From Flavobacterium sp. N502536 (GTDB lineage Bacteria; Bacteroidota; Bacteroidia; Flavobacteriales; Flavobacteriaceae), in the NCBI RefSeq assembly GCF_025947345.1, contig NZ_CP110011.1:3472001-3536000 (forward strand): 64,000 nt of DNA. The letters are read 5' to 3'. Below are positions 1-11,929 of the stretch, one piece after another (the first letter of the stretch is position 1; every line of letters begins with the position of its first letter). Under the pieces are notes generated by a model that saw nothing but the letters and a program-made list of their open reading frames with translations, was not told where the DNA came from and ran no database searches. Position numbers and translations under genes: made by a program.

Positions 1-2726
1 GCATCGGTACTAGTGGTTGATTCTCCAACCATTTTGGTCATGTTGTAAACCGAATAATCAAAAGCGCCCTGAAAAAAGATGTTCAAATCGAAGTTTCCTA
101 TTTTAAAGTCATTATTGAAACCAACAGTGTAGTGCGGAGTAGAATTTCCTAAATAAGCCCTGTCTGCCACTGTTATTGCACCATCGCCATCTAAATCCTC
201 GTATTTTGGATCTCCCGGTTTAGACAGGGGCTGCGGAGCATATACTTCTCCTGTTTTGATAACTCCGGCATATTTAAAACCATAGAGTAACCCCATTTCT
301 TTGCCCGGTTCCAGTCTTGTAAATTCTCGTCCCGAAACCGTTCCGCTTGGGTTAGAGGTGTTTTGGGTGATAATGGCAACATTATCGGCAAGTGAAACTA
401 CTTCCTGTTTGTTGTAAGCAAGGTTTAAAGAGGTAGTCCACAAGAAATTATCGTTTCTGAAATTGGTACTGGTAATGCCCAGTTCGATACCTCTATTGTC
501 AATAACTCCCGAATTAATGGTCTGCGTATTAAAGCCCCACCAGCCACCAATTGGAACTCTAAGAAGTGCATCGGTAGTTCTTTTTCTATAGACATCAATT
601 GTGGCCGTTATTCTATCATTAAAAAGGCCCATATCTAAACCAATATCGGTCTGAGTAGTTTGTTCCCATTTTAAATCTTTGTTGGATAAGTTGGCAGGTT
701 CAGTACCATTAGAAAAATTTCCATCTCCAATCGTTACTCCCCAGGCTTTTAAGGTAGGCATGAAAGCATAATCTCCAATACCATCTGCCCCCGTAACACC
801 ATAACTCACTCTCAATTTAAGATCGGAGATCGTTTTGGAGTTTTGCATAAAAGACTCGTTCGATATTTTCCACGCTACGGCTCCCGATGGGAAAGTACCA
901 TAGGAATTATTACTTCCAAAACGAGATGAGCCGTCCCTTCTTAAGGTAAAAGCAGCAAGGTATCGATCGTTAAAAGAATAATTTAGCCTTCCGAAATAAG
1001 AAGTTAGCTTTGTTTCGATTTTTTCTGTTTCGGGTTTCAAATAAACCGCTGCAGCGTCAAGGTTGTGATAGGTTAACACATCGTTAGAAAAGCCCGTACC
1101 TGCCGCTTTTAAAAATTCATAAGTGTCTTTTTGATTAGAAGTTCCGATCATGGCACTTATAGAGTGTTCGTTTATATTGAATTTATAAGTCAGATATTGA
1201 TCGGTACTCCATCTAAAATAGGTTTTGTTTTCCTCAGAACCGGATCCCTTCAAAGCCGCTCCGGCCACCAGTGTTCTTGGGGTATATTTTCCCTCGATGT
1301 TTTCCTGCCATTCGGCACCGGCTCCAAAATGATAGGTCAGTCCTTTAATGATCTCATAATCCAAAAACATATTCCCGTTAACCAATCTGTTGATGATATG
1401 ATCGGTTGGCTCTAATAAAAGGGCTAAAGCATTATCTTTTCCCTGAAATTTGTAATAAGATCCATCAGGATTGTAAATCGGAATGGTTGGTGGAGCAGTC
1501 TGGATCGAAAACATTGGCGATAAAATGTTATCTCCAAAATCGCTGTTGTTTCCTTCGCTGGCAGCTCCATAAATGTTAGTACCTACATTTAATCGGTCAT
1601 TAAATCTTTTTTCGCCACCCATTCTCACACTGTATCTTTTAAAATCAGTATTTTCGATAGCTCCGGTTTGTTTGAGGTAGTTTCCTGAAAGAAAAAATTT
1701 AGACGTTTTATCACTTCCACTAAAGGTAATGGTTCTGTTTATTACTTCTCCGGGACGTGTTGCGGCCTTAAACCAGTTGGTATTGGCGACAGGGAAATCG
1801 GAAGAAAAAACGGGCGGTCGGCCATTTTCCTTTGCGATTGCATTTTGAATATCGGCATATTGCTGTCCGTTGATAAGTGAAGGTTCCTTAATGATGTTTT
1901 GAAAACCATCTGAGATTTCAGCTTCGATCTGCATTTTTCCTAACTTTCCTTTTTTGGTGGTAATCAGGATAACCCCATTAGCACCTCTCGAACCATAAAT
2001 AGCAGTAGAAGAAGCATCTTTTAAGATCTGAATGTTCTCAATATCATTTGGACTTATCGAGGCTCCGGTATTGGTGATGAAACCGTCTACCACATACAAA
2101 GGAGAATTAGAGTTGTTAAGAGAGTTTCCACCCCTAATAACAATGGAAGGATTTGTCCCAGGAGCATAACTGTTTTGCTGTACCTGAACGCCTGAAGCAC
2201 GACCTTGTAAGGCCTGGCCAACGTTGGTAATGGTTCCGCCTAAATTTAAATTGTCTTTGCCAATAGAACTTACAGAACCGGTAAGGTCTTTTTTCTTGGC
2301 TTTTCCATATCCTATAACTATTTCTTCTAATTTTTGGCCTACCTCTTTCATAACGACTTTTATAGGTGAGGTTCCAATAGTTATTTCCTGATCTTCCATA
2401 CCAATGTAGGAAACGATTAGTTTGGTCACATTATCAGCAACAGTAATAGCAAAACTTCCGTCTGCATCTGTTTGTACTCCGGTACGACTTCCTTTTACAA
2501 CAACATTTGCTCCGGCTATTGGAAGTCCGTTTTGATCTGTCACTTTACCCTTCACTGTTTTTTCAAAAACGAATGCAATATCATTTCTGCGATTTATTTT
2601 TACAGTTGAGGTCGCTGAAACCTGAACAGTAAAAACGAATACTAAAAAAAGTGTGAGTTTAATCTCTGTACCGGTAAGATCTTTTAGCCTAAAATCTCCG
2701 GGGCTTTTTTGGGTTAATAATTTCAT
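1..2726 (-). CDS. SusC/RagA-type TonB-dependent outer-membrane transporter (3' end outside window)
   Basis: Outer-membrane transporter that imports an oligosaccharide using TonB energy, normally paired with a SusD lipoprotein encoded just downstream (here beyond the left edge). Reading leftward from ATG 2726 gives about 908 residues without a stop. Visible in order: an N-terminal hydrophobic segment (signal peptide, LTLFLVFVFTVQVSA), a carboxypeptidase-regulatory-like domain (GKVTDQNGLPIAGANVVVKG), then the plug domain with the family signature PLYVVDGF and the stretch AIYGSRGANGVILITTKKGK, then beta-barrel sequence such as GRLNYSFNDRYLAAFTLRRD. Full-length members are about 1000 residues, so roughly the last tenth is missing. 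Transcription probably starts near 2963 from the operator-controlled promoter, leaving a leader of about 235 nt. Which sugar it imports cannot be read from this sequence; the linked amino-sugar-type genes are only a hint. Confidence 0.95.
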   Translation of the reverse strand, partial: MKLLTQKSPGDFRLKDLTGTEIKLTLFLVFVFTVQVSATSTVKINRRNDIAFVFEKTVKGKVTDQNGLPIAGANVVVKGSRTGVQTDADGSFAITVADNVTKLIVSYIGMEDQEITIGTSPIKVVMKEVGQKLEEIVIGYGKAKKKDLTGSVSSIGKDNLNLGGTITNVGQALQGRASGVQVQQNSYAPGTNPSIVIRGGNSLNNSNSPLYVVDGFITNTGASISPNDIENIQILKDASSTAIYGSRGANGVILITTKKGKLGKMQIEAEISDGFQNIIKEPSLINGQQYADIQNAIAKENGRPPVFSSDFPVANTNWFKAATRPGEVINRTITFSGSDKTSKFFLSGNYLKQTGAIENTDFKRYSVRMGGEKRFNDRLNVGTNIYGAASEGNNSDFGDNILSPMFSIQTAPPTIPIYNPDGSYYKFQGKDNALALLLEPTDHIINRLVNGNMFLDYEIIKGLTYHFGAGAEWQENIEGKYTPRTLVAGAALKGSGSEENKTYFRWSTDQYLTYKFNINEHSISAMIGTSNQKDTYEFLKAAGTGFSNDVLTYHNLDAAAVYLKPETEKIETKLTSYFGRLNYSFNDRYLAAFTLRRDGSSRFGSNNSYGTFPSGAVAWKISNESFMQNSKTISDLKLRVSYGVTGADGIGDYAFMPTLKAWGVTIGDGNFSNGTEPANLSNKDLKWEQTTQTDIGLDMGLFNDRITATIDVYRKRTTDALLRVPIGGWWGFNTQTINSGVIDNRGIELGITSTNFRNDNFLWTTSLNLAYNKQEVVSLADNVAIITQNTSNPSGTVSGREFTRLEPGKEMGLLYGFKYAGVIKTGEVYAPQPLSKPGDPKYEDLDGDGAITVADRAYLGNSTPHYTVGFNNDFKIGNFDLNIFFQGAFDYSVYNMTKMVGESTTSTD

Positions 2727-2969: not shown

Positions 2970-3000
2970 CGAAGCTATAGATTATATTTTTATAAAACAA
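2970..3000 (-). promoter_or_regulatory. Promoter of susC (TTG-N20-TAGCTTCG)
   Basis: On the minus strand TTG (3000-2998) is followed after 20 nt by TAGCTTCG (2977-2970), a one-mismatch form of the Bacteroidota -7 box TAnnTTTG. Sequence and spacing match almost base for base the promoter in front of the sugar kinase at 6185-6215, which is the main reason to believe both. The predicted start of transcription is near 2963, giving a long 5' leader of about 235 nt before the ATG. Confidence 0.75.
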
Positions 3001-3016
3001 GAAAAAACACTAAAAA

Positions 3017-3053
3017 TGTGCTCGAACACACGTAATTAATGTTCTCGAGCACA
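3017..3053. promoter_or_regulatory. Paired 14-bp palindromic operators, copy A (probable LacI-family sites)
   Basis: Two near-palindromes, TGTGCTCGAACACA (3017-3030) and TGTTCTCGAGCACA (3040-3053), with TCGA centres 23 bp apart. They lie 17 bp upstream of the TTG element of the susC promoter. The reverse complement of the pair recurs exactly (both 14-mers and the 9-bp spacing) at 6133-6169 in front of the kinase operon, and the LacI-type regulator is encoded between them. Assigning this regulator is inference from position and symmetry. Confidence 0.8.
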
Positions 3054-3405
3054 TTTTTTTAAGTAAAACACATTTTTTTACTTAAATTCGTATGATTATT
3101 GTGGAATTAATGAGAAGAAAAACGTTAGTTCTATTTTGAAGTATTTTAGTGTTAAATAGAAAATAGTTGCGTTAATTATCGTATTTGTGTTAAAATTAAT
3201 GAATAATTATTATTGATAGGTTTGATTTTTTGAAGGAGAGAAAGGCTGTTCTCATGCATTATATTCAGAAAAGTATCCTGTTTTCTTTTATCCGATTTTA
3301 ACCTATTTTCGTAATCCGAAAAAAAGCAAAAAATACCCTCCGTCTGAAGCGGTCTTCAGAATTTGAAATGTTAAAAAAATTAACAAATATTTAAAGCCAA
3401 ACATT
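3054..3405. other. Intergenic region between the operators and the CBM9-like gene
   Basis: No gene seen. It holds a small hairpin AAGTAAAA/TTTTACTT (3061-3083), a -7-like box TAGGTTTG at 3217-3224 that could serve the rightward CBM9-like gene with a leader of about 175 nt, and a short inverted repeat TCTGAAG/CTTCAGA around 3343-3360. I see no clear -33 TTG at the right distance for the box, so the promoter call is weak. Confidence 0.35.
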
Positions 3406-4044
3406 GTGAAAGAATATCAGGTAGTTTTACGAAATGAGAATCAGAAAATAGCTATAGAAAATCCCGTTGTCTCATTTTGGGAAAAAGCAAATGAACTTAC
3501 TGATTTTTGCTCGGCATGGAACAGTGACCCCTTTTCAAAAATAGCATTCAGTGCCTTTTGGGATCGTGAAAATCTTTTTTTTAAATTCAGAGTGTTTGAT
3601 ACCCATATTCACCTGGATCAAAAAGACGATAGTATTGACAGTATAGGAAATTCTGACCGGGTAGAATTGTTTTTTAGAATCAATGCGTCTTTAGATCCGT
3701 ATTATTGTTTGGAAATCGATACAGCAGGGCGTGTAATGGATTTTAAAGCCCGTCCCGGTAAGGACTTTGATTTTGATTGGAATTGGCCTAAAAATGATTT
3801 AGAGATCACGACGTCAAAGGATGAAATTTCTTTTACTGTTGAAGGACGAATCAGTATTCAATCGTTAAAACAGTTGAATTTAATACAGAACAACACTATT
3901 GAAGCGGGTGTTTTTAGAGCTAAGTTTGATAAGAATACAAATGACGAATACGAGCCCACCTGGATTTCGTGGGTAAATCCCAATACCGAAACACCTAATT
4001 TTCATATTGCTTCTTCTTTTGGGAAGTTTATTTTGATGGAGTGA
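3406..4044 (+). CDS. CBM9/DOMON-like sugar-binding protein
   Basis: A 212-residue single-domain beta-sandwich protein resembling the carbohydrate-binding module family 9-like (DOMON-type) proteins of Bacteroidota, often called sugar-binding or endoxylanase-like. Supporting stretches are FSAFWDRENLFFKFRVFDTH, the acidic NSDRVELFF, the YCLEIDTAGRVMDFKARPG core and the C-terminal WISWVNPNTETPNFH. The start is GTG at 3406; no signal peptide follows it, so the protein may be cytoplasmic, which is odd for a glycan-binding role, unless the true start differs. It is divergent from susC and shares its upstream region, so it may belong to the same regulon. Substrate unknown. Confidence 0.7.
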   Translation: MKEYQVVLRNENQKIAIENPVVSFWEKANELTDFCSAWNSDPFSKIAFSAFWDRENLFFKFRVFDTHIHLDQKDDSIDSIGNSDRVELFFRINASLDPYYCLEIDTAGRVMDFKARPGKDFDFDWNWPKNDLEITTSKDEISFTVEGRISIQSLKQLNLIQNNTIEAGVFRAKFDKNTNDEYEPTWISWVNPNTETPNFHIASSFGKFILME

Positions 4045-4115
4045 AATGTTTCTTGTGAAATGTGAAATGTGAAATGTGAAATGTGGATTGTGGATTGTGG
4101 ACATTGTGGAGTGTA
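4041..4115. repeat. Heptameric quasi-tandem repeat (TGTGAAA type)
   Basis: Directly after the CBM9-like stop, the unit TGTGAAA recurs with a 7-bp step and then drifts to TGTGGAT and TGTGGAC. The same kind of 7-bp run is seen after other genes at 7397-7431 and 60989-61046. No coding capacity is evident. Confidence 0.8.
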
Positions 4116-4133
4116 AGCGATGTGCGATAGAGG

Positions 4134-4795
4134 CCACGGATGACGCTGATTCGCTTTGCGAAGACGCGGATTAACACGGATTTTTTTAGGTTGAAAAATA
4201 TCTGCGAAATCTGCCAGATCTGCGAGAAAAAAAATCTACCTAAATCTGTAAAATGTAGATTGTGTACATTGGACGTGTAAACGATGTGGGATAGGTGCCA
4301 CGGATGACGCTGATTCGCTTTGCGAAGACACGGATTAACACGGATTTTTTTAGGTTGAAAAATATCTGCGAAATCTGCTAGATCTGCGAGAAAAAAAATC
4401 TACCTAAATCTGTAAAATGTAGATTGTGTACATTGGGCGTGTAAGCGATGTGGGGATAGGGTCCACGGATGACGCTGATTCGCTTTGCGAAGACGCGGAT
4501 TAATACGGATTTTTTTAGGTTGAAAAATATCTGCGGAATCAGCCAGATCTGCGAGAAAAAAAAACTATTTAAATCTGTGAAATGTGGATTATGGACATTG
4601 TGGTGTGTGAGTGATGTTGGATAGGGGCCACGGATGACGCTGATTCGCTTTGCGAAGACACGGATTAACACGAATTTTTTTAGGGTGAAAAATATCTGCG
4701 AAATCTGCCAGATCTGCGAGAAAAAAAATCCACCTAAATCTATGAAATGTGGATTGTAGGTATTGGGGTGTGTGAGTGATGTAAAGCTTAATTTG
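4134..4795. repeat. Four tandem copies of a 164-165-bp unit
   Basis: The unit begins CCACGGATGACGCTGATTCG and recurs at 4134, 4298, 4463 and 4628, i.e. with steps of 164, 165 and 165 bp. Each copy carries a small hairpin TTCGC-TTT-GCGAA, the palindrome CAGATCTG within CTGCGAAATCTGCCAGATC, and a run of seven or eight A. Copies differ at scattered positions. Reading frames across the array on the minus strand are a by-product of the repeat and are not called as genes. Confidence 0.92.
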
Positions 4796-4815
4796 AATTT
4801 TTAAGAAAAGGACCC

Positions 4816-4977
4816 TTTGTCATTTCGACCGAAGGGAGACTCGAGCGATAGCGAACAGGCGAAGCAAATCGCAAAAGAAACCCCGTTCCTAAAATCGCCA
4901 ATCTTTGTCGAGCTTCATGCGTGATTTGCTTCGCCTGTTCGCTATCGCTCGAGTCTCCCTTCGGTCGAAATGACAAA
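4816..4977. repeat. Perfect 55-bp inverted repeat with 52-bp loop
   Basis: The left arm 4816-4870 (starting TTTGTCATTTCGACCGAAGG) is the exact reverse complement of the right arm 4923-4977. As RNA or single-stranded DNA this forms a very long hairpin. The text GTCATTTCGACCGAAGGGAG resembles a short intergenic repeat I recall from many flavobacterial genomes. There is no transposase gene nearby. It lies past the 3' end of the LacI gene (stop at 5034), where it could act as a terminator or RNA stabiliser. Confidence 0.92.
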
Positions 4978-5033
4978 AAAAAACAAAAAATCGTTGCGTT
5001 TTAGTGTCTTAGTGGCAATTCTGTGGATAAAAA

Positions 5034-6074
5034 TTAAGAAACGTAAAAAGAAGCATTCTCCACGTTGATAATATCGATTGGCAATAAAATGGTTTCCGGA
5101 ATATCTTTTCGGAATAAAAAGTGCTCCACCAAAGTACTAACACCCAAATAAGCTTGTCTTTTTTGATTCTGATGAATTAAAAAATGAACCAGTCCCTGAT
5201 TTAAGAAATTGACATTTTTCGCTACTAAATCATAACCAATGATTGCGATCTTTTTGTTGGGTACAGCAGACAAAATAGAGGCGATTTGATATGCTTTTGA
5301 GGTGGTGATGAAAATTCCTTTCAGATTTGGATTTTCGTCTAAAAAGGCTGAAAACTTAGTTTCAACATTCGGATGTTTTAATTTTAGAGTAGTCAGTGAA
5401 AAGCTGCGGATCTTTTTCTCGTCAAAATAACTTCTGAAACCCTTTTCCTTTTCCTGCATGTGCACGGCGTTTTTAAGGCTTTCGTCAATATGGATGATGG
5501 CAATCTGGCCTTCTGTTAAAATCAGATTCATTAAACTGGCAGCCACACGACCACTTTTATGTAAATCCTGTCCAACAAAACTTTTTATAGATTCGCCTTC
5601 GATCTGGTTGTTAAACGTATTCACCATGATGTTCAAATCATCGTATTGTTTTACGATCCCCACTGTTTCTTTGTGGAATAAAGGGGCAATCAAAACAGCA
5701 TCAGGCGATTTTTTGATAATGGTTTCGTTGGTATTTAAAAATGATTTGGTGCTTTCCGGATTAAAAAAGTGTGTTTCAATAATAACACTGTACGCTTTAA
5801 ATTCGGTGATCGCATCCTGAATTCCGTTTACACAGGGAAGCCAGTAAGGATCAATTTCAGGATCGGGAAGTAAAACACAGATTCTGTAAACCTTGGTGTT
5901 TTTTAAATTTCGTGCTATTAAATTCGGCTCATAATTGATGACGTTCAGAACTTCATTTATTTTGTCTAAGGCCGTAGGAGAAACTTTTCCTCTGTTGTGC
6001 AAAACCCTGTCGACAGTTCCTTTAGAAACTCCCGCCATTTTTGCTATATCCTTAATGGTGTACTTTTTATCCAT
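5034..6074 (-). CDS. LacI-family transcriptional regulator
   Basis: DNA-binding regulator of 346 residues. Residues 4-58 are a textbook LacI helix-turn-helix (YTIKDIAKMAGVSKGTVDRV) with hinge region (NYEPNLIARNLKN). The rest is a periplasmic-binding-protein-like effector domain of the Peripla_BP_4 type (PDAVLIAPLF, IIGYDLV, QNQKRQAYLGV). The start ATG at 6074 is fixed by the HTH beginning within five residues. It is transcribed away from the kinase operon; paired palindromes lie just beyond its 5' end (6133-6169) and in front of susC. The likely effector is a sugar or sugar phosphate from this locus. A -7 box only 5 nt from the ATG suggests a leaderless or nearly leaderless mRNA. Confidence 0.93.
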   Translation of the reverse strand: MDKKYTIKDIAKMAGVSKGTVDRVLHNRGKVSPTALDKINEVLNVINYEPNLIARNLKNTKVYRICVLLPDPEIDPYWLPCVNGIQDAITEFKAYSVIIETHFFNPESTKSFLNTNETIIKKSPDAVLIAPLFHKETVGIVKQYDDLNIMVNTFNNQIEGESIKSFVGQDLHKSGRVAASLMNLILTEGQIAIIHIDESLKNAVHMQEKEKGFRSYFDEKKIRSFSLTTLKLKHPNVETKFSAFLDENPNLKGIFITTSKAYQIASILSAVPNKKIAIIGYDLVAKNVNFLNQGLVHFLIHQNQKRQAYLGVSTLVEHFLFRKDIPETILLPIDIINVENASFYVS

Positions 6075-6079
6075 ATAGG

Positions 6080-6087
6080 CAAATATA
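6080..6087 (-). promoter_or_regulatory. -7 box of the LacI-family gene
   Basis: TATATTTG on the minus strand (6087-6080) fits TAnnTTTG exactly. Its last base is only 5 nt from the ATG at 6074, so transcription would begin at or next to the start codon. No good TTG is seen at the -33 distance. Confidence 0.5.
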
Positions 6088-6132
6088 GAAACTTTGATTT
6101 AATTTTTTTAAAATCCTGTAAGAATTAATTAG

Positions 6133-6169
6133 TGTGCTCGAGAACATTTTAATGGTGTGTTCGAGCACA
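6133..6169. promoter_or_regulatory. Paired 14-bp palindromic operators, copy B
   Basis: TGTGCTCGAGAACA (6133-6146) and TGTGTTCGAGCACA (6156-6169), centres 23 bp apart. The pair is the exact reverse complement of the pair at 3017-3053. It lies 15 bp upstream of the TTG of the kinase promoter and about 60 bp upstream of the LacI ATG, so it could control both directions. Relative to the predicted kinase transcript start the sites centre near -58 and -81. Confidence 0.82.
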
Positions 6170-6184
6170 TTTTTCTTTTTTTTC

Positions 6185-6215
6185 TTGTTTTATAAAAATA
6201 TAATCTCTAGTTTCG
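6185..6215 (+). promoter_or_regulatory. Promoter of the sugar-kinase operon (TTG-N20-TAGTTTCG)
   Basis: TTG (6185-6187), a 20-nt AT-rich spacer, then TAGTTTCG (6208-6215). The spacer TTTTATAAAAATATAATCT is shared with the susC promoter. The predicted transcript start is near 6222, giving a leader of about 83 nt before the GTG start at 6305. Confidence 0.75.
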
Positions 6216-6304: not shown

Positions 6305-7396
6305 GTGAAAAAAATTACTTCATTAGCCCCGGGCAGAACCTGCCTCTTCGGAGACCATCAGGATTATTTAGGATTGCCGGTTATCGCCTGTGCAATCGAT
6401 CGAAATATACAACTATCTGCCGAACAAAATCTAACCCAGACATTTGTTTTAAATATGATTGATATTAATGAGATTCGTATCATTGATATCGATGCTACTT
6501 TCGACAAATTAGAGCCCAGAGATTATTTTGCTTCGTCCTTACGGGTATTGCGAAGATATGGCTGTGTGCCTAATGTTGGCTACGACATTATCATTACAGG
6601 AGATATTCCAATAAACTCAGGAACGTCGAGTTCTTCTGCTTTATTGATGGCGTGGATTCGTTTTTTAATCGATGCCTTTGGAATTGATCGTGAAGTTACT
6701 CCTGAGTTTATTTCCAAATTAGGGTACGAATCGGAAGTTTTAGAACACGGAGAACCGGGCGGAATGATGGATCATTTTAGCATCGGAGTGGGGAATATCG
6801 TTTACATTAATACCAAAGATCCTTTTTCGTATAAAATAATAGGAACGAACCTGAAAGGCCTTGTTACCGGAGTTTCGGGAGTTCCAAAAGAAACTATCGG
6901 TTTGCTGGGAGAGTTAAAAGGAAATGCTTTAATGTCAATTGATATTGTAAAGCAAAATTTCCCTGATTTTGATCTGAATGCTTCCGAAATAGAAGATCTG
7001 GACCGCTATCGAAATTGCCTGCCAGACCGATTGATTCCTTTCTTCGAAGCAGCCTTGAAAAATTATCACTATACCAAAGAAGCTTTAAAAGAGTTTGAAA
7101 AACCCGTTTTAGACCTTAAGAAAATTGGTGCACTGATGAATCTTCATCACGAAGTTTTGCGCGATTTATTAAAAGTTACTGTACCGCGAATTGACGCTAT
7201 GATCAATGCGGCTTTGCGCGCTGGTGCCTACGGAGCAAAAATTGTAGGTTCAGGTGGTGGCGGAAGTATTGTGGTCATAGCAAATCCAGAGAAAGAAGAT
7301 TTGGTTATTGAAGCCATTCTAAATGCGGGAGCTCAGGAAGCTTACGCGGTGTCTGTTGATCCTGGTGTCAGGGTTATTGAAAATGTTGAAATTTAA
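6305..7396 (+). CDS. GHMP-family sugar kinase (galactokinase-like)
   Basis: ATP-dependent small-molecule kinase of 363 residues. All three GHMP motifs are visible: the sugar-recognition segment PGRTCLFGDHQDY (about residues 9-21, like the GRxNLxGEHxDY signature of galactokinase), the ATP loop GDIPINSGTSSSSAL (about 99-113) and the C-terminal KIVGSGGGGS (about 312-321). The start is GTG; the next in-frame ATG would remove the first motif. Family members of this subtype usually phosphorylate C1 of galactose, GalNAc or a related sugar. It is first in an operon with a nucleotidyltransferase, a FucP-type transporter and a NagB/PIG-L fusion, so an N-acetylhexosamine is a reasonable guess, but the sequence alone does not settle the substrate. 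Confidence 0.85.
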   Translation: MKKITSLAPGRTCLFGDHQDYLGLPVIACAIDRNIQLSAEQNLTQTFVLNMIDINEIRIIDIDATFDKLEPRDYFASSLRVLRRYGCVPNVGYDIIITGDIPINSGTSSSSALLMAWIRFLIDAFGIDREVTPEFISKLGYESEVLEHGEPGGMMDHFSIGVGNIVYINTKDPFSYKIIGTNLKGLVTGVSGVPKETIGLLGELKGNALMSIDIVKQNFPDFDLNASEIEDLDRYRNCLPDRLIPFFEAALKNYHYTKEALKEFEKPVLDLKKIGALMNLHHEVLRDLLKVTVPRIDAMINAALRAGAYGAKIVGSGGGGSIVVIANPEKEDLVIEAILNAGAQEAYAVSVDPGVRVIENVEI

Positions 7397-7534: not shown

Positions 7535-8410
7535 ATGCATAACAATTTAGTTATTCTTGCGGGTGGAGCATCTTCCCGTATGAAAAAAGAAGCCATTTCA
7601 GATAATTTAACTGCAGAAGAAATCGCGCAGGCAAATGAAAGAAGTAAAGGCTTAATAGGAGTTGGAGCAAGCGGAAGACCTTTGTTGGATTATCTTTTGC
7701 TCAACGCTAAAAAAGCAGGATATAAAAACATCTACATTATCATTGGAGAGCAGGGAGAGCTGTTTAAAGAGTTTTACGGAAGCCGTGACACCGATAATGA
7801 TTTTCACGGACTCAACATTTCATTTGCGGTTCAGTACATTCCCGAAGGAAGAGTGAAGCCATTTGGTACTGCTGATGCGTTGTTTCAGGCGGTAGAGCAG
7901 TTTCCGGAATTAAACACACAGCAATATTCAGTTTGTAACAGTGATAACTTGTACTCAGCTGCTGCTTTATTGGCGCTTAGAGAAACCAATAGTCCAAACG
8001 CTTTTATTGCTTACGATCGTGAGGCTTTGGAATTTCCGTCTGAAAGAATTTCCCGATTTGCCATTGCTAAATTGGATCAGAACAATCAGTTGCTGGATAT
8101 TTTAGAAAAACCTTCGGCCGATGTTTTAGCGGATTATAAAGACGTTGAGGGGAAAATAAGAGTGAGTATGAATGCTTTTAAATTCAACGGAAGTACTTTA
8201 TACACACACTTAAAAAATTGTCCTGTTCATCCTGAGCGCGACGAAAAAGAGCTGCCTACAGTATTATTAAATGCCGTAAAAGAAAACCCAAATACCACAA
8301 TAGGGATCCCATTTTCAGAACATGTTCCGGATCTGACTGCTAAAGAAGATATTGCCGATGTAAAGGAATATTTAAAGCAGCATTATCCGGTTTTAGACTG
8401 GGACGCTTAA
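7535..8410 (+). CDS. Sugar-phosphate nucleotidyltransferase-like protein
   Basis: 291 residues with the N-terminal Rossmann-type signature of NTP transferases, LAGGASSRMKK (about residues 8-18), a predicted sugar-phosphate site further on (FGTADALFQAV, then YSVCNSDNLYSA, where the aspartate of NSDN fits the metal-binding position) and the later FIAYDREALEF. Such enzymes join a sugar 1-phosphate to NTP to give an NDP-sugar. With the GHMP kinase upstream this would give a two-step salvage route, free sugar to sugar-1-P to NDP-sugar. The gap to the kinase is 138 bp and filled by heptamer repeats; the start ATG follows an AT-rich leader. Nucleotide and sugar specificity are not readable. Confidence 0.75.
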   Translation: MHNNLVILAGGASSRMKKEAISDNLTAEEIAQANERSKGLIGVGASGRPLLDYLLLNAKKAGYKNIYIIIGEQGELFKEFYGSRDTDNDFHGLNISFAVQYIPEGRVKPFGTADALFQAVEQFPELNTQQYSVCNSDNLYSAAALLALRETNSPNAFIAYDREALEFPSERISRFAIAKLDQNNQLLDILEKPSADVLADYKDVEGKIRVSMNAFKFNGSTLYTHLKNCPVHPERDEKELPTVLLNAVKENPNTTIGIPFSEHVPDLTAKEDIADVKEYLKQHYPVLDWDA

Positions 8411-8594: not shown

Positions 8595-9968
8595 ATGTCA
8601 AAAATTGAGACTGCAATACCTATAGAAAAGAGGAGTTCGATCATTCCGATGATTATCCTGACCGCATTATTTTTTATATTGGGATTTGTCACCTGGTTAA
8701 ACGGACCTTTAATTCCTTTTTTCGAATTAGCGTGCGAGTTGTCTTCTTCTCAGGCTTATTTTGTAACTTTTGCTTTTTATATTGCCTATTTTGTAATGGC
8801 AGTTCCATCATCCTGGGTAATTGAAAAGGTAGGCTATAAAAATGGTATTTCTTTAGGATTATTAATCATTGCAGCCGGAGCATTTATGTTTTATCCGGCC
8901 GCCGAAAGCCGAACTTTTATATTGTTTTTAATTGCCTTATTTATCATGGGAACGGGCTTGGCTATTTTGCAGACGGCTTCGAATCCGTATGTGGTAGTGA
9001 TTGGCCCAAGAGAAAGTGCAGCAGCCAGAATTAGCGTACTGGGAATTGCAAATAAACTGGCAGGTTTTGTTGCGCCATTGATCTTAACGGCTTTGGTATT
9101 GTCAAACATGCAGGAGTTTACGGCAGATAAAATTGCGCTTTTGGATACTGTTTCCAAAACAAATGCTTTAAATTCTCTTGCATTACAATTGCAAAGACCC
9201 TATCTTTATATGGGATTGATTATAATGGTTTTAGCATTTTTGGTAAAACTGTCTCCGCTTCCGGAAATTGATTTAGATGAAGAAGGAAATGTGGCGCATT
9301 TGAGTATTTTTAAGCAAATCAGAAATGCCTTCAGACGTCCGCAATTGGTTTTAGGAGTAATCACTTTGATGCTGTATTTAGCGGCAGAAGTTTTAGCCGG
9401 AGATTCTATTGGAGGATTCGGAAAAGAACTGGGCGTATATGGAAGCGAAGGGAATTTTTATTTAAAATTAACCTCGTTTACCATGTCGGCAATGGTTGTG
9501 GGGTATATACTGGGGATTACATTAATTCCAAAATACCTTTCGCAGGTAACGGCCTTGAAAGGCTCAGGAGTTTTGGGTATAATTTTAGTATTGGCAATCG
9601 TTTTGATTTCACCAAAAATTATGATTCAGCTGCCTGGAATTCCAAGTCTGCCGGTGGTGATTCTTTTGGTAGCGTTGTTGGGTCTGGCAAATGCACTTTG
9701 CTGGCCGGCAATTTGGCCAATGGCATTAGAGGATTTAGGAGGTTATACCAAAATTGGAAGTGCAATATTGATTATGGGAATTATTGGAGGAGCAATTTTT
9801 CCTTTGTTCTACGGAATAATCACAGAAAATATAAATGCGTCAAATATTGCAAATGGTACCGTTGGAGTTTCAAAAAGCGGAAATCAAATTGCGTATTTAA
9901 TGCTGTTACCATCGTATGTAATGATTCTTTTTTATGCAGTAAAAGGACATAAGTATCGAAGCTGGTAA
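8595..9968 (+). CDS. FucP-type MFS sugar transporter
   Basis: Inner-membrane sugar:cation symporter of the major facilitator superfamily, 457 residues and about 12 hydrophobic segments. The FucP/GluP/NagP subfamily is indicated by FFILGFVTWLNGPLIPF near the N terminus, the paired motif ILQTASNPYVVVIGPRESAA (about residues 124-143) and ANALCWPAIWPMALEDLG (about 363-380), where the last stretch is a recognisable C-domain feature. It would import the free sugar phosphorylated by the upstream kinase. In Bacteroidota, related transporters (NagP) carry N-acetylglucosamine, which fits the downstream NagB domain. Only 32 bp separate it from the next gene, consistent with co-transcription. Confidence 0.88.
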   Translation: MSKIETAIPIEKRSSIIPMIILTALFFILGFVTWLNGPLIPFFELACELSSSQAYFVTFAFYIAYFVMAVPSSWVIEKVGYKNGISLGLLIIAAGAFMFYPAAESRTFILFLIALFIMGTGLAILQTASNPYVVVIGPRESAAARISVLGIANKLAGFVAPLILTALVLSNMQEFTADKIALLDTVSKTNALNSLALQLQRPYLYMGLIIMVLAFLVKLSPLPEIDLDEEGNVAHLSIFKQIRNAFRRPQLVLGVITLMLYLAAEVLAGDSIGGFGKELGVYGSEGNFYLKLTSFTMSAMVVGYILGITLIPKYLSQVTALKGSGVLGIILVLAIVLISPKIMIQLPGIPSLPVVILLVALLGLANALCWPAIWPMALEDLGGYTKIGSAILIMGIIGGAIFPLFYGIITENINASNIANGTVGVSKSGNQIAYLMLLPSYVMILFYAVKGHKYRSW

Positions 9969-10000: not shown

Positions 10001-11929
10001 ATGTTAAAAAGTAAAATCGACAAAGCAACGGGGTTCGAGAAACGATTCGAAAACATCAATACAGTTGTTTTTGAAAATTCTGGCGATGCGTCAAAAGCAG
10101 TAGCTCAGGAAATTGCGGCTTTAATTCAATCCAAGCAAAAAGAAAATAAACCTTGTATTTTAGGTCTGGCAACAGGATCTTCTCCAAAAGGATTATATGC
10201 TGAACTGGTACGTTTACACAAAGAGGAAGGCTTGAGTTTTAAAAACGTAATTAGTTTCAATTTGGATGAATATTATCCAATGGAGCCAAATTCAATCAAC
10301 AGTTATGTTCGTTTTATGAATGAATTGCTGTTTGATCATGTCGATATTTTACCTGAAAATTACCACGTTCCGGACGGACTTTTAACAAAAGAGCAAATCG
10401 CAGATTATTGCCACGATTATGAAGCAAAAATCGAAGCACTTGGTGGAATCGATTTGCAGATTCTTGGAATTGGAGGTAACGGACATATTGGTTTTAATGA
10501 ATCGGGATCGTTACAAAACTCTAAAACACGTTTGGTGGCTTTAGATCATATTACCAGAGTAGCAGCAAGTAAAGACTTTTTCGGATTGAGCAATACGCCA
10601 AGAACAGCAATTACACTTGGAGTAAAAAAGATCATGGAAGCCAAACAGGTAATCTTACTGGCTTGGGGAGAAGGGAAAGCGAATATTGTAAAAAAATCAG
10701 TCGAAGATGAAGTGACCAACCGCGTACCGGCTTCGTTTTTACAGGAACACAACAACGCTGTTTTTGTTTTAGACAAAGAGGCTTCTTCAAAACTAACCAG
10801 AATCAACAAACCTTGGTTGGTAGAAAAAGTAATCTGGACCGATAAATTGACCCGTAAAGCGGTTTTAGGATTAGCATTACAGCTTAAAAAACCAATTTTA
10901 ATGCTTACCGATGCCGATTATATCGAAAACGGAATGAGCGATTTATTGGCTGATTCAGGTCCGGCATACGACATCAATATCAAGATATTCAATAAATTAC
11001 AAAATACAATCACAGGATGGCCGGGAGGTAAACCAAATGCCGATGATACCAATCGTCCTGAAAGAGCAGAACCTGCTAAAAAACGTGTATTGATTTTTAG
11101 CCCGCACCCGGATGACGATATCATCAGTATGGGAGGAACTTTCATGCGTTTGCAGGAGCAGGGACATGAAGTACATGTAGCGTATCAAACTTCCGGAAAT
11201 ATTGCTGTAGCCGATGATGAAGCTTTGCGTTTTGCAAGATTCGTAATTGATTACAATGAAAAATTCGGAATCAAAAGTGCCGAAGCAGACAATATTTACC
11301 AAAAAGCAGCGACTTTTTTAACCAATAAAAAGAACAGCGAAATTGATATTCCTGAAGTTCGTTACATCAAAGGATTAATCAGAAAAGGAGAGGCGAGAGC
11401 GACCAGTCATTTTGTAGGTTTAACTGATGATCAGATTCATTTTATGGAATTACCATTCTATGAAACCGGAACAATTGAGAAAAAACCAATTGGAAAAGAA
11501 GACATTCAGTTAACGATGGACTTAATTGAAAAAATTAAGCCGCACCAAATTTATGCTGCAGGAGATTTAGCAGATCCGCACGGAACACATAAGGTTTGTT
11601 TGGACGCTATTTTCGAAGCGGTAAAAGCACTAAAACCAAAATCGTTTATGGACGATTGCTGGTTGTGGTTGTACCGCGGAGCATGGCAGGAATGGGGAAT
11701 TGATGAAGTTGAAATGGCGGTACCAATGAGCCCGGATCAGGTATTGGCAAAACGTCACGGAATCTTCAAGCACCAATCTCAAAAAGACGGTGTTGTTTTC
11801 CAGGGAACTGATGCCAGAGAATTTTGGCAAAGAGCCGAAGACCGAAATGCCGAAACAGCTGCTTTGTACCAACAGTTAGGTCTAGCTACTTACGCTGCAA
11901 TGGAAGCTTTTGTAAGGTGGCATTATTAA
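10001..11929 (+). CDS. nagB: NagB/PIG-L fusion: glucosamine-6-phosphate deaminase with deacetylase-like domain
   Basis: 642 residues with two enzymes in one chain. Residues 1 to about 300 are NagB-type glucosamine-6-P deaminase/isomerase: LATGSSPKGLYAELVRLH, VISFNLDEYYPM with the catalytic Asp (about residue 89), and GIGGNGHIGFNES with the His (about 162). Residues from about 360 are a PIG-L/LmbE domain: FSPHPDDDIISMGGTF (zinc ligands His-Pro-Asp-Asp, about 369) and DLADPHGTH (about 525). PIG-L enzymes remove N-acetyl groups from GlcNAc-containing substrates, so the fusion may deacetylate and then deaminate an N-acetylhexosamine phosphate, replacing a separate NagA. This two-domain form is common in Bacteroidota. 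The order of reactions and which phosphorylated form is used are inferences. Confidence 0.92.
   Translation: MLKSKIDKATGFEKRFENINTVVFENSGDASKAVAQEIAALIQSKQKENKPCILGLATGSSPKGLYAELVRLHKEEGLSFKNVISFNLDEYYPMEPNSINSYVRFMNELLFDHVDILPENYHVPDGLLTKEQIADYCHDYEAKIEALGGIDLQILGIGGNGHIGFNESGSLQNSKTRLVALDHITRVAASKDFFGLSNTPRTAITLGVKKIMEAKQVILLAWGEGKANIVKKSVEDEVTNRVPASFLQEHNNAVFVLDKEASSKLTRINKPWLVEKVIWTDKLTRKAVLGLALQLKKPILMLTDADYIENGMSDLLADSGPAYDINIKIFNKLQNTITGWPGGKPNADDTNRPERAEPAKKRVLIFSPHPDDDIISMGGTFMRLQEQGHEVHVAYQTSGNIAVADDEALRFARFVIDYNEKFGIKSAEADNIYQKAATFLTNKKNSEIDIPEVRYIKGLIRKGEARATSHFVGLTDDQIHFMELPFYETGTIEKKPIGKEDIQLTMDLIEKIKPHQIYAAGDLADPHGTHKVCLDAIFEAVKALKPKSFMDDCWLWLYRGAWQEWGIDEVEMAVPMSPDQVLAKRHGIFKHQSQKDGVVFQGTDAREFWQRAEDRNAETAALYQQLGLATYAAMEAFVRWHY

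Follow-up and report, generated by a model that had tools for sequence, protein, structure and literature searches.

A LacI-family regulator gene of Flavobacterium sp. N502536 lies between two closely similar operator–promoter modules, one reading towards a susC importer gene and the other towards a sugar kinase operon, and the locus raises the question of whether these modules are units of one regulon and in which direction the regulator would act on them. The window considered here is a stretch of 64,000 nucleotides of contig NZ_CP110011.1 (positions 3,472,001 to 3,536,000, forward strand), and feature coordinates refer to it unless another locus is named.

Modules and genes around lacI

Both modules described in the earlier note are present, on the minus strand before susC1 (3053-2970) and on the plus strand before the kinase operon (6133-6215), each consisting of two 14-mers with 23 bp between their centres and a TTG-N20 promoter beside the pair. 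At the susC1 module, the plus strand reads TGTGCTCGAACACA at 3017-3030 and TGTTCTCGAGCACA at 3040-3053; on the minus strand, the putative distal operator (3040-3053, centre ≈ −81.5) is TGTGCTCGAGAACA and the putative proximal operator (3017-3030, centre ≈ −58.5) is TGTGTTCGAGCACA. The kinase module carries TGTGCTCGAGAACA as its putative distal operator (6133-6146, plus strand, centre ≈ −80.5) and TGTGTTCGAGCACA as its putative proximal operator (6156-6169, plus strand, centre ≈ −57.5). The four 14-mers are exact reverse complements pairwise, first with fourth and second with third; they had been called palindromes and are indeed inverted repeats, but not perfect ones, one position being unpaired (6/7 pairs). 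The predicted susC1 promoter occupies 3000-2970 on the minus strand (TTG at 3000-2998, N20, TAGCTTCG at 2977-2970), in a register kept in relatives, and the predicted kinase-operon promoter occupies 6185-6215 on the plus strand (TTG, N20, TAGTTTCG). In this genome the two 31-bp promoters differ at 2 positions, and the linker between operator and TTG is 16 bp in the susC1 module vs 15 bp in the kinase module. With the spacing to the start site borrowed from the accessible part of PMC6847099, transcription is inferred to start at ≈ 2965 for susC1 and at ≈ 6220 for the kinase operon.

Upstream of the susC1 distal operator, one 23-bp period further out, lies an A-tract/T-tract stretch (3063-3078, minus strand) that is conserved at susC modules only: counted from the distal operator in 32 non-redundant susC modules, A is found in 27-32 of 32 at −25 to −20 and T in 23-26 of 32 at −15 to −13. 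This stretch is possibly a degenerate third site, and because of it the idea that conservation begins exactly at the distal operator fails for susC modules.

Transcription from the minus-strand module would first reach susC1 (1-2726, minus strand), which encodes a SusC/RagA TonB-linked outer-membrane importer (TIGR04056, 735.8 bits; PF07715, PF13715) and extends to the left beyond the window, to L032:16628. On the plus strand follow genes for a GHMP sugar kinase of the galactokinase/N-acetylgalactosamine-kinase superfamily (6305-7396; PF00288, PF08544, PF10509), whose PDB relatives include mevalonate kinase, galactokinase and N-acetylgalactosamine kinase; a sugar-1-phosphate nucleotidyltransferase (7535-8410; PF00483); a NagP-like MFS sugar carrier (8595-9968), which at 462.7 bits does not pass the cut-off of 625 of the NagP model NF046060; and a NagB-like glucosamine-6-phosphate deaminase fused to a PIG-L domain (10001-11929; NF002557, 1070.7 bits; PF02585). 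Together with two SusCD systems and GH123, GH109 and GH35 genes, they form the set of putative targets, and this set suggests the use of N-acetylhexosamine glycans.

The regulator (346 aa; 5034-6074, minus strand) has an N-terminal helix-turn-helix (PF00356, residues 6-51, 52.5 bits against a cut-off of 27) and a periplasmic-binding-protein-like ligand domain (PF13407, residues 66-318, 107.5 bits), and its closest solved structure is 3gbv (E 5e-39). By these two predicted domains and by the inverted-repeat operator with a central CG, found near lacI itself and near its putative targets, it belongs to the LacI/GalR family. Its identification as CcpA was rejected, the score for TIGR01481 (52.8 bits) being under the equivalog cut-off of 442.35.

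Distribution and origin of the module

The exact operator pair occurs in three copies in the 5.05-Mb genome, against none for the reversed control. The third copy (G000:C1:3456793-3456829, equal to L032:1793-1829; minus strand) stands outside the window before a second susC gene ≈ 18 kb away, and the module spacings in N502536 are 3 kb and 18 kb. Single 14-mers were discarded as evidence: with three mismatches allowed, 41 were found in the window vs 39.05 expected, which is background, and with two mismatches 347 were found vs 278 in the control. Neither an exact 14-mer at G000:C1:931127 (TGTTTTCGAAAACA) nor a one-mismatch 14-mer at 4193045 was retained as a regulon member after inspection of the neighbouring genes, as no pair is found at either place. 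A plasmid origin was likewise rejected: a search of the plasmid collection with the susC module gave no match.

Among 398 genomes of the genus, the exact pair was detected in 81, all of them among the 95 that encode a LacI orthologue, and in none of the 303 LacI-negative genomes; this co-occurrence is partly the inheritance of one locus, since all 80 kinase-positive genomes are also LacI-positive. The composite pattern of the proximal operator, N16 and TTG-N20-TAnnTTnG was found at 127 places in 82 genomes, again all LacI-positive, with none in the control. In some relatives (G189, G318) the distance between the pair and lacI amounts to 100 kb, or the two are on different contigs, and composite sites distant from the locus also occur; F. 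johnsoniae CI04 carries a relative of the locus (L207). The loci examined contain 109 distinct composite sites, 10 of which have no distal operator, and L264, the Gelidibacter locus that was inspected over its whole length, retains one operator, with no such promoter recognised in it by eye. Co-occurrence strongly supports the proposal that importer and pathway genes belong together in a LacI regulon, and palindromes next to unrelated genes in the absence of a LacI homologue, which the earlier note regarded as the contrary outcome, were not found when exact pairs were considered. The epithet "local" holds for the modules around lacI but not for the third module or for the distant composite sites of relatives. 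We take the module to be a unit of a LacI regulon that selection maintains.

The likeness of the modules had been ascribed to duplication or strong selection, and it is selection that the comparison favours. Recent duplication or gene conversion, devoid of regulatory meaning, would account for the two nearly identical 31-bp promoters of this genome and for the fact that kinase and susC promoters resemble each other slightly more within a genome (0.918) than with shuffled partners (0.909; 64 loci), a value reached in 0 of 1000 shuffles. This excess is tiny, however, and within-genome likeness does not rise above that of orthologous promoters compared across genomes (susC 0.917, kinase 0.921). 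Divergence is seen in the spacer and in the flanks, the 100 bases downstream are hardly more alike within a genome than with shuffled partners (0.354 vs 0.346), and the 1-bp linker difference is conserved across species, being 16 in 79/79 susC modules and 15 in 61/76 kinase modules. With the module kept in 81 genomes as well, duplication as the only cause is hardly credible.

Promoter geometry and the direction of control

The geometry of the module had been left uninterpreted in the earlier note. For its description, modules were taken from the loci of two collections overlapping in species, with exact copies removed and near copies retained. In the set of 185 modules (up to three mismatches; 21-bp pairs with three mismatches dropped), 176 promoter placements were obtained at 175 modules, which, given the phylogenetic correlation of the sequences, are not 176 events. 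The operator is wholly upstream of the −35/−33 box at a fixed position, with a linker of 15 or 16 in 175 of 176 placements where 14-17 was allowed. The ten modules without a promoter in register comprise two at a contig or locus end (L130, L178), three outer pairs of triple arrays (L142, L151, L165) and five other variants (L148, L163, L167, L172, L204), the first four of which show TAGTTTCG with an altered TTG or spacer. Pair polarity was followed in 183 modules with up to two mismatches and distinct 150-bp flanks and is uniform in the 162 that were oriented (distal TGTGCTCGAGAACA in 136, proximal TGTGTTCGAGCACA in 152, swapped in 0). Around 175 promoter placements, from ≈ 200 bp upstream to 250 bp downstream and with up to two mismatches, only seven extra 14-mers were found. 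Three of these represent a third operator, displaced upstream by another 23 bp; a single one is situated downstream (≈ +67), and no 14-mer overlaps the promoter.

The promoter search in the 183-module set fixed CG at −6/−5, and counts at −6 were therefore drawn from searches that left this position open. In the 176 placements, −6 is C in 163, A in 13 and T in none; at the 127 composite sites it is C in 124, A in 2 and T in 1 (in G217), and with −10 left open too, G stands there in 113 of 127. The consensus TAHHTTTG of the Bacteroidetes primary-sigma −7 box, as given in the accessible part of PMC6847099, is thus not matched at −6 in 176/176 placements and 126/127 composite sites; according to the same source, T at −6 is nearly invariant and G at −10/−9 virtually zero in 241 promoters of F. 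johnsoniae. The divergent lacI promoter is of the consensus type. Its −7 box (TATATTTG, 6080-6087, minus strand) stands 5 nt before the ATG, so that the lacI mRNA is predicted to be leaderless. From 141 lacI starts, 116 distinct upstream sequences were derived, 9 of them without a readable −7 box; in the 107 readable ones, T occupies −6 in 106 and the box lies 5-7 nt from the ATG in 105.

Operators upstream at a fixed distance (≈ −58 and ≈ −81), combined with an off-consensus −7 box, point to activation of the kind known for CcpA and not to a repressor that acts by blockage. CcpA is reported to activate from sites upstream of −35 and to repress from sites inside the promoter or downstream of it, with a counter-case in the B. 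subtilis lev operon, where an upstream CcpA site represses by blocking the activator LevR (PMC3463425 and, for the rule, PMC2329647, both as partly accessible). We consider it probable that a dedicated LacI regulon for glycans containing N-acetylhexosamines has the 84-bp element as its control unit, with the upstream-bound LacI protein activating. Adjacent LacI dimers, two in number and centred at ≈ −58 and ≈ −81, would attract RNA polymerase to the promoter downstream of them, where the −7 box, almost never with T at −6 and usually with G at −10, would be kept too weak to function alone; a sugar would be the signal that renders LacI able to activate or keeps it so. The consensus −7 box and leaderless message of lacI would provide a steady, small supply of the regulator, and the same 84-bp unit at two susCD operons and at the kinase/nucleotidyltransferase/carrier/deaminase operon would bring about a coordinated rise in outer-membrane uptake, glycan cleavage and intracellular processing.

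A classical inducible repressor would instead hold RNA polymerase inactive from the upstream sites, by contact or looping, until released by the sugar. Both upstream sites and looping can serve LacI and GalR; in E. coli, galP1 is repressed by GalR from ≈ −60. The distances of 3 kb and 18 kb between the modules of N502536 would also fit this reading. Members of the family are mostly expected to repress (PMC2329647, in the part accessible). The repressed promoter would, however, be expected to be strong, whereas T at −6 was never seen in the 176 placements; the 14-mers avoid the promoter as described, and for the remote pairs of G189 and G318 short-range looping between modules is unlikely. Repression is, on this evidence, a rather unlikely reading. 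Less probable still is that an alternative, ECF-type sigma factor reads the promoter through C−6 G−5 T−4 as a CGT box, with LacI only modulating. CGT stands at −6 to −4 in 54 of the 58 modules remaining at a 75% identity limit, a set in which C−6 was required, and a CGT box is present in F. psychrophilum motif SM6, ascribed to ECF sigma factors in the accessible part of PMC9723704. Against this, the sister type with 21-bp pairs carries AG where the 23-bp type has CG, and TTG at −35 to −33 occupies the place of the primary-sigma −33 element. Within the N502536 genome, 4 places match the full promoter core at up to three mismatches (control 1), 3 of them at LacI modules, and the short form TTG-N20-TAnnTTCG occurs 44 times vs 70 in the control; the latter is background, which makes this a weak test of the core beyond the LacI modules.

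Known systems and significance

NagR-type LacI regulators of N-acetylglucosamine genes are similar in family and in having a NagP carrier and a NagB deaminase among their targets, but NagR is a repressor, its operator differs from that of the module, and the carrier here is below the NagP cut-off. CcpA/cre of B. subtilis and L. lactis shares the protein family and the inverted-repeat operator with a central CG, and the activating L. lactis site, with its centre 21 or 31 bp upstream of −35 in the accessible part of PMC2329647, compares with ≈ 23 bp upstream of TTG here. CcpA, however, is global, works with HPr-Ser-P and is mostly a repressor (PMC3463425, as far as accessible), whereas here one glycan gene set is concerned, with usually two side-by-side sites of fixed polarity and no promoter-overlapping site found. 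The accessible part of PMC3878776 describes KdgR, UxaR, UxuR and UxmR of Bacteroides, likewise LacI-family sugar catabolism regulons recognised by comparative genomics in Bacteroidetes, but serving uronate pathways; the SusCD-locus regulators it names are SusR-like, HTCS and ECF sigma systems, with LacI not among them. In Bacteroides these also control susCD operons but belong to different protein families, unlike the LacI protein here, which is presumably cytoplasmic. PMC12125979 was set aside as a precedent, since its regulator, in the part accessible, has an AraC DNA-binding domain. Among the matches listed from open-licence PMC, no description of this module or regulator was recognised, which is no proof of unpublished status.

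To our knowledge, the control of SusCD glycan loci outside Bacteroides is poorly mapped, and the LacI family is best known for repressors. The present study supplies one regulator, its exact putative binding unit, a likely regulon and a predicted sign of control. With somewhat more reserve than for the element itself, we lean towards a dedicated, substrate-specific LacI activator that binds as two dimers in fixed polarity, at promoters whose −7 box is kept off consensus by selection, and that controls SusCD loci in Flavobacterium. If activation is true, LacI would be a fourth kind of SusCD-locus control beside SusR, HTCS and ECF sigma, and the module would give Flavobacterium genetics a small promoter that can be induced. 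It would also be a clear example from nature of a LacI-family protein serving as a dedicated activator, at a −7 box that is conserved although it departs from the consensus.

Distribution and origin of the module

The module, a unit of about 84 bp in which a distal and a proximal 14-bp predicted operator (inverted repeats, centres 23 bp apart) are followed by a TTG-N20--7 box promoter, lies ahead of susC1 (module 1, minus strand, 2970-3053) and the kinase operon (module 2, plus strand, 6133-6215), with the gene for a 346-aa LacI-family regulator (5034..6074, minus strand) between them. A sequence check of the window confirmed the positions assigned in the earlier note to the four 14-mers and both promoters. 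The genome-wide scan proposed there, performed as 14-mer, 5-15 bp, 14-mer across the 5.05-Mb genome, found the exact pair at only three places, each of them a module, and at none with the reversed motif. Module 3 is located outside the window (G000:C1:3472001-3536000), on the minus strand ahead of a second susC (G000:C1:3456793-3456829 in the strain's own genome; 1793-1829 of locus L032). Between module 1 and lacI, a gene for a small CBM9-like protein (3406-4044) is transcribed toward lacI, and the following stretch (4082-4977) consists of four tandem copies of about 165 bp, then a 64-bp inverted repeat (94% complementary).

The window's LacI protein shares 98% identity with its counterpart in Flavobacterium collinsii (L189) and 99% with the one encoded by a Flavobacterium MAG (L188), against 31% with a second LacI-family protein of the strain (G000:C1:4719339-4720340, L039). 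Among the 398 genomes of the genus, including its own, 95 carry a LacI orthologue (E at most 1e-70), and the exact pair was found in 81, every one of them LacI-positive (Fisher p 1.9e-70, phylogeny ignored). Nine of the 14 LacI-positive genomes without the exact pair carry it with 1-3 mismatches, four (G131, G156, G190 and G309) retain single operators, and for the last, G144, the stretch examined (L133) contained no operator at ≤1 mismatch. A second scan made no use of the distal operator and looked for composite sites of the form proximal operator, N16, TTG, N20, TAnnTTnG; it gave 127 places in 82 genomes, all LacI-positive, and none for the reversed control. In Gelidibacter and Flaviramulus relatives, whose LacI proteins are 52-61% identical, one or two such operators stand directly upstream of lacI. 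The confinement of pairs and composite sites to LacI-positive genomes supports the proposal of the earlier note that the module is the unit of a LacI regulon.

The likeness of the modules had been attributed to duplication or strong selection. At 64 loci, kinase and susC promoters of the same genome were 0.918 alike, versus 0.909 for shuffled partners (reached by 0/1000 shuffles); orthologues of different genomes gave 0.917 and 0.921. The corresponding values were 0.567 versus 0.534 for spacers (6/1000) and 0.354 versus 0.346 for the downstream 100 bases (12/1000). These small excesses could result from shared ancestry or composition and are far below the expectation from fresh copying, so recent duplication was rejected and selection retained: the modules are apparently old and maintained by selection.

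Geometry of operators and promoter

Among 185 candidate modules drawn from 142 loci, the promoter was in register at 175, with 176 placements since one module has a promoter on each side. With lengths of 14-17 bp allowed, all but one of these placements (175/176) had a linker of 15 or 16 bp: ahead of susC it was 16 in 79/79 cases, whereas the 76 ahead of kinase genes comprised 61 with 15 and 15 with 16. The TTG-to-TA spacer was set to 20 in this count; in a separate one permitting 19-21, it was 20 in 158/162. Pair spacing (183 modules) was 23 bp in 164, 22 in 7, 24 in 3 and 21 in 9, the last being a separate type with TTT replacing TTG. The pair is asymmetric, with the same polarity toward the promoter throughout 162 oriented modules. 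Of 109 distinct composite sites at the loci examined, 98 have a distal operator with ≤1 mismatch, one has it with three mismatches and 10 lack it, so that the proximal operator is the invariable component of the module.

In three genomes (G133, G207 and G332), one more operator stands another 23 bp upstream of the pair. Arrays of three operators at 23-bp intervals before one promoter occur at L142:5344-5403, L151:7558-7617 and L165:7225-7284. The position of the third operator in the three genomes, one 23-bp step beyond the distal one, coincides exactly with the centre of a susC-specific element that recurs there across 32 non-redundant susC modules (3063-3078 at susC1). Counted from the distal operator, this element has an A-tract at -25 to -20, where 27-32 of the 32 modules carry A, and then a T-tract, where 23-26 carry T at -15 to -13; many modules have CG or TG between the two tracts. 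The element may be a worn third operator or a piece of bent DNA. The susC modules show little conservation downstream of the -7 box, and none was seen upstream of the distal operator in kinase modules.

Promoter sequence and sign of control

In a survey of 241 F. johnsoniae promoters, T-6 is nearly invariant, G at -10/-9 is virtually absent, and the -7 box lies 4-5 nt from the transcription start (PMC6847099). At the LacI modules, 163 of the 176 placements had C at position -6, the other 13 had A and none had T; in the composite sites of whole genomes it was C in 124, A in 2 and T in 1 (n=127), with G at -10 in 113/127. The divergent promoter of lacI itself has T-6 in 106/107 readable sequences. 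Thus, the -7 box is held off consensus where operators stand upstream at module spacing. In 105/107 readable sequences, 5-7 nt separate the end of lacI's own -7 box from the ATG (stretch 6074-6087, minus strand, in the window), which predicts a leaderless message for lacI. Few mRNAs of the genus are of this class; it made up 5.5% of those examined in F. psychrophilum, as excerpted from PMC9723704.

For the LacI-family protein CcpA, the portions available of PMC3463425 and PMC2329647 describe activation from upstream sites and repression from overlapping or downstream ones, with exceptions such as the lev operon. A search of the module surroundings found no extra operator overlapping the promoter. 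Mainly because the -7 box is kept from consensus, and also given the fixed operator position, the lack of a promoter-overlapping operator and the CcpA rule, LacI probably acts as an activator at the modules, a positive sign newly assigned here. Repression through contact or looping is unlikely by comparison. It is possible that an alternative sigma factor reads the module promoter, as CGT at -6 to -4 would suggest, but the sister type with 21-bp pairs is without CGT. The full promoter core hardly occurs in the strain's genome outside the modules, and the short core is too common to discriminate.

Genes behind the modules

Downstream of module 1, on the minus strand and perhaps, but not necessarily, all in one transcript, lie susC1, susD1 and genes for arylsulfotransferase-like, cytochrome c, GH123, DUF5107/TPR and M1 peptidase proteins. 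Module 3 (minus) precedes susC2, susD2 and genes for DUF5077/DUF3472, GH109-type and GH35 proteins, and module 2 (plus) those for a GHMP sugar kinase, a nucleotidyltransferase, a NagP-like carrier and a NagB/PIG-L protein. Two LacI-positive genomes, G008 (L149) and G189 (L143), are without the GHMP kinase and have a nucleotidyltransferase downstream of the module; at locus L258, an APH-type kinase follows the module. Families behind non-GHMP modules were checked for these three loci only, and similar first reading frames stand behind the modules of L154-L156, L158, L159, L165, L170, L171, L259 and L260. At loci of this type, another kinase family possibly replaces the GHMP kinase in the same pathway.

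Further sites in relatives include one in L165 that precedes a GH29 gene and, with the proximal operator only, sites in front of GH31 (L302), GH95 (L303), GH2 (L304) and SusC (L317) genes, 20 kb to >600 kb away from lacI. Taken together, the gene families of the regulon suggest that its substrates are glycans with a high content of N-acetylhexosamine, galactose and fucose.
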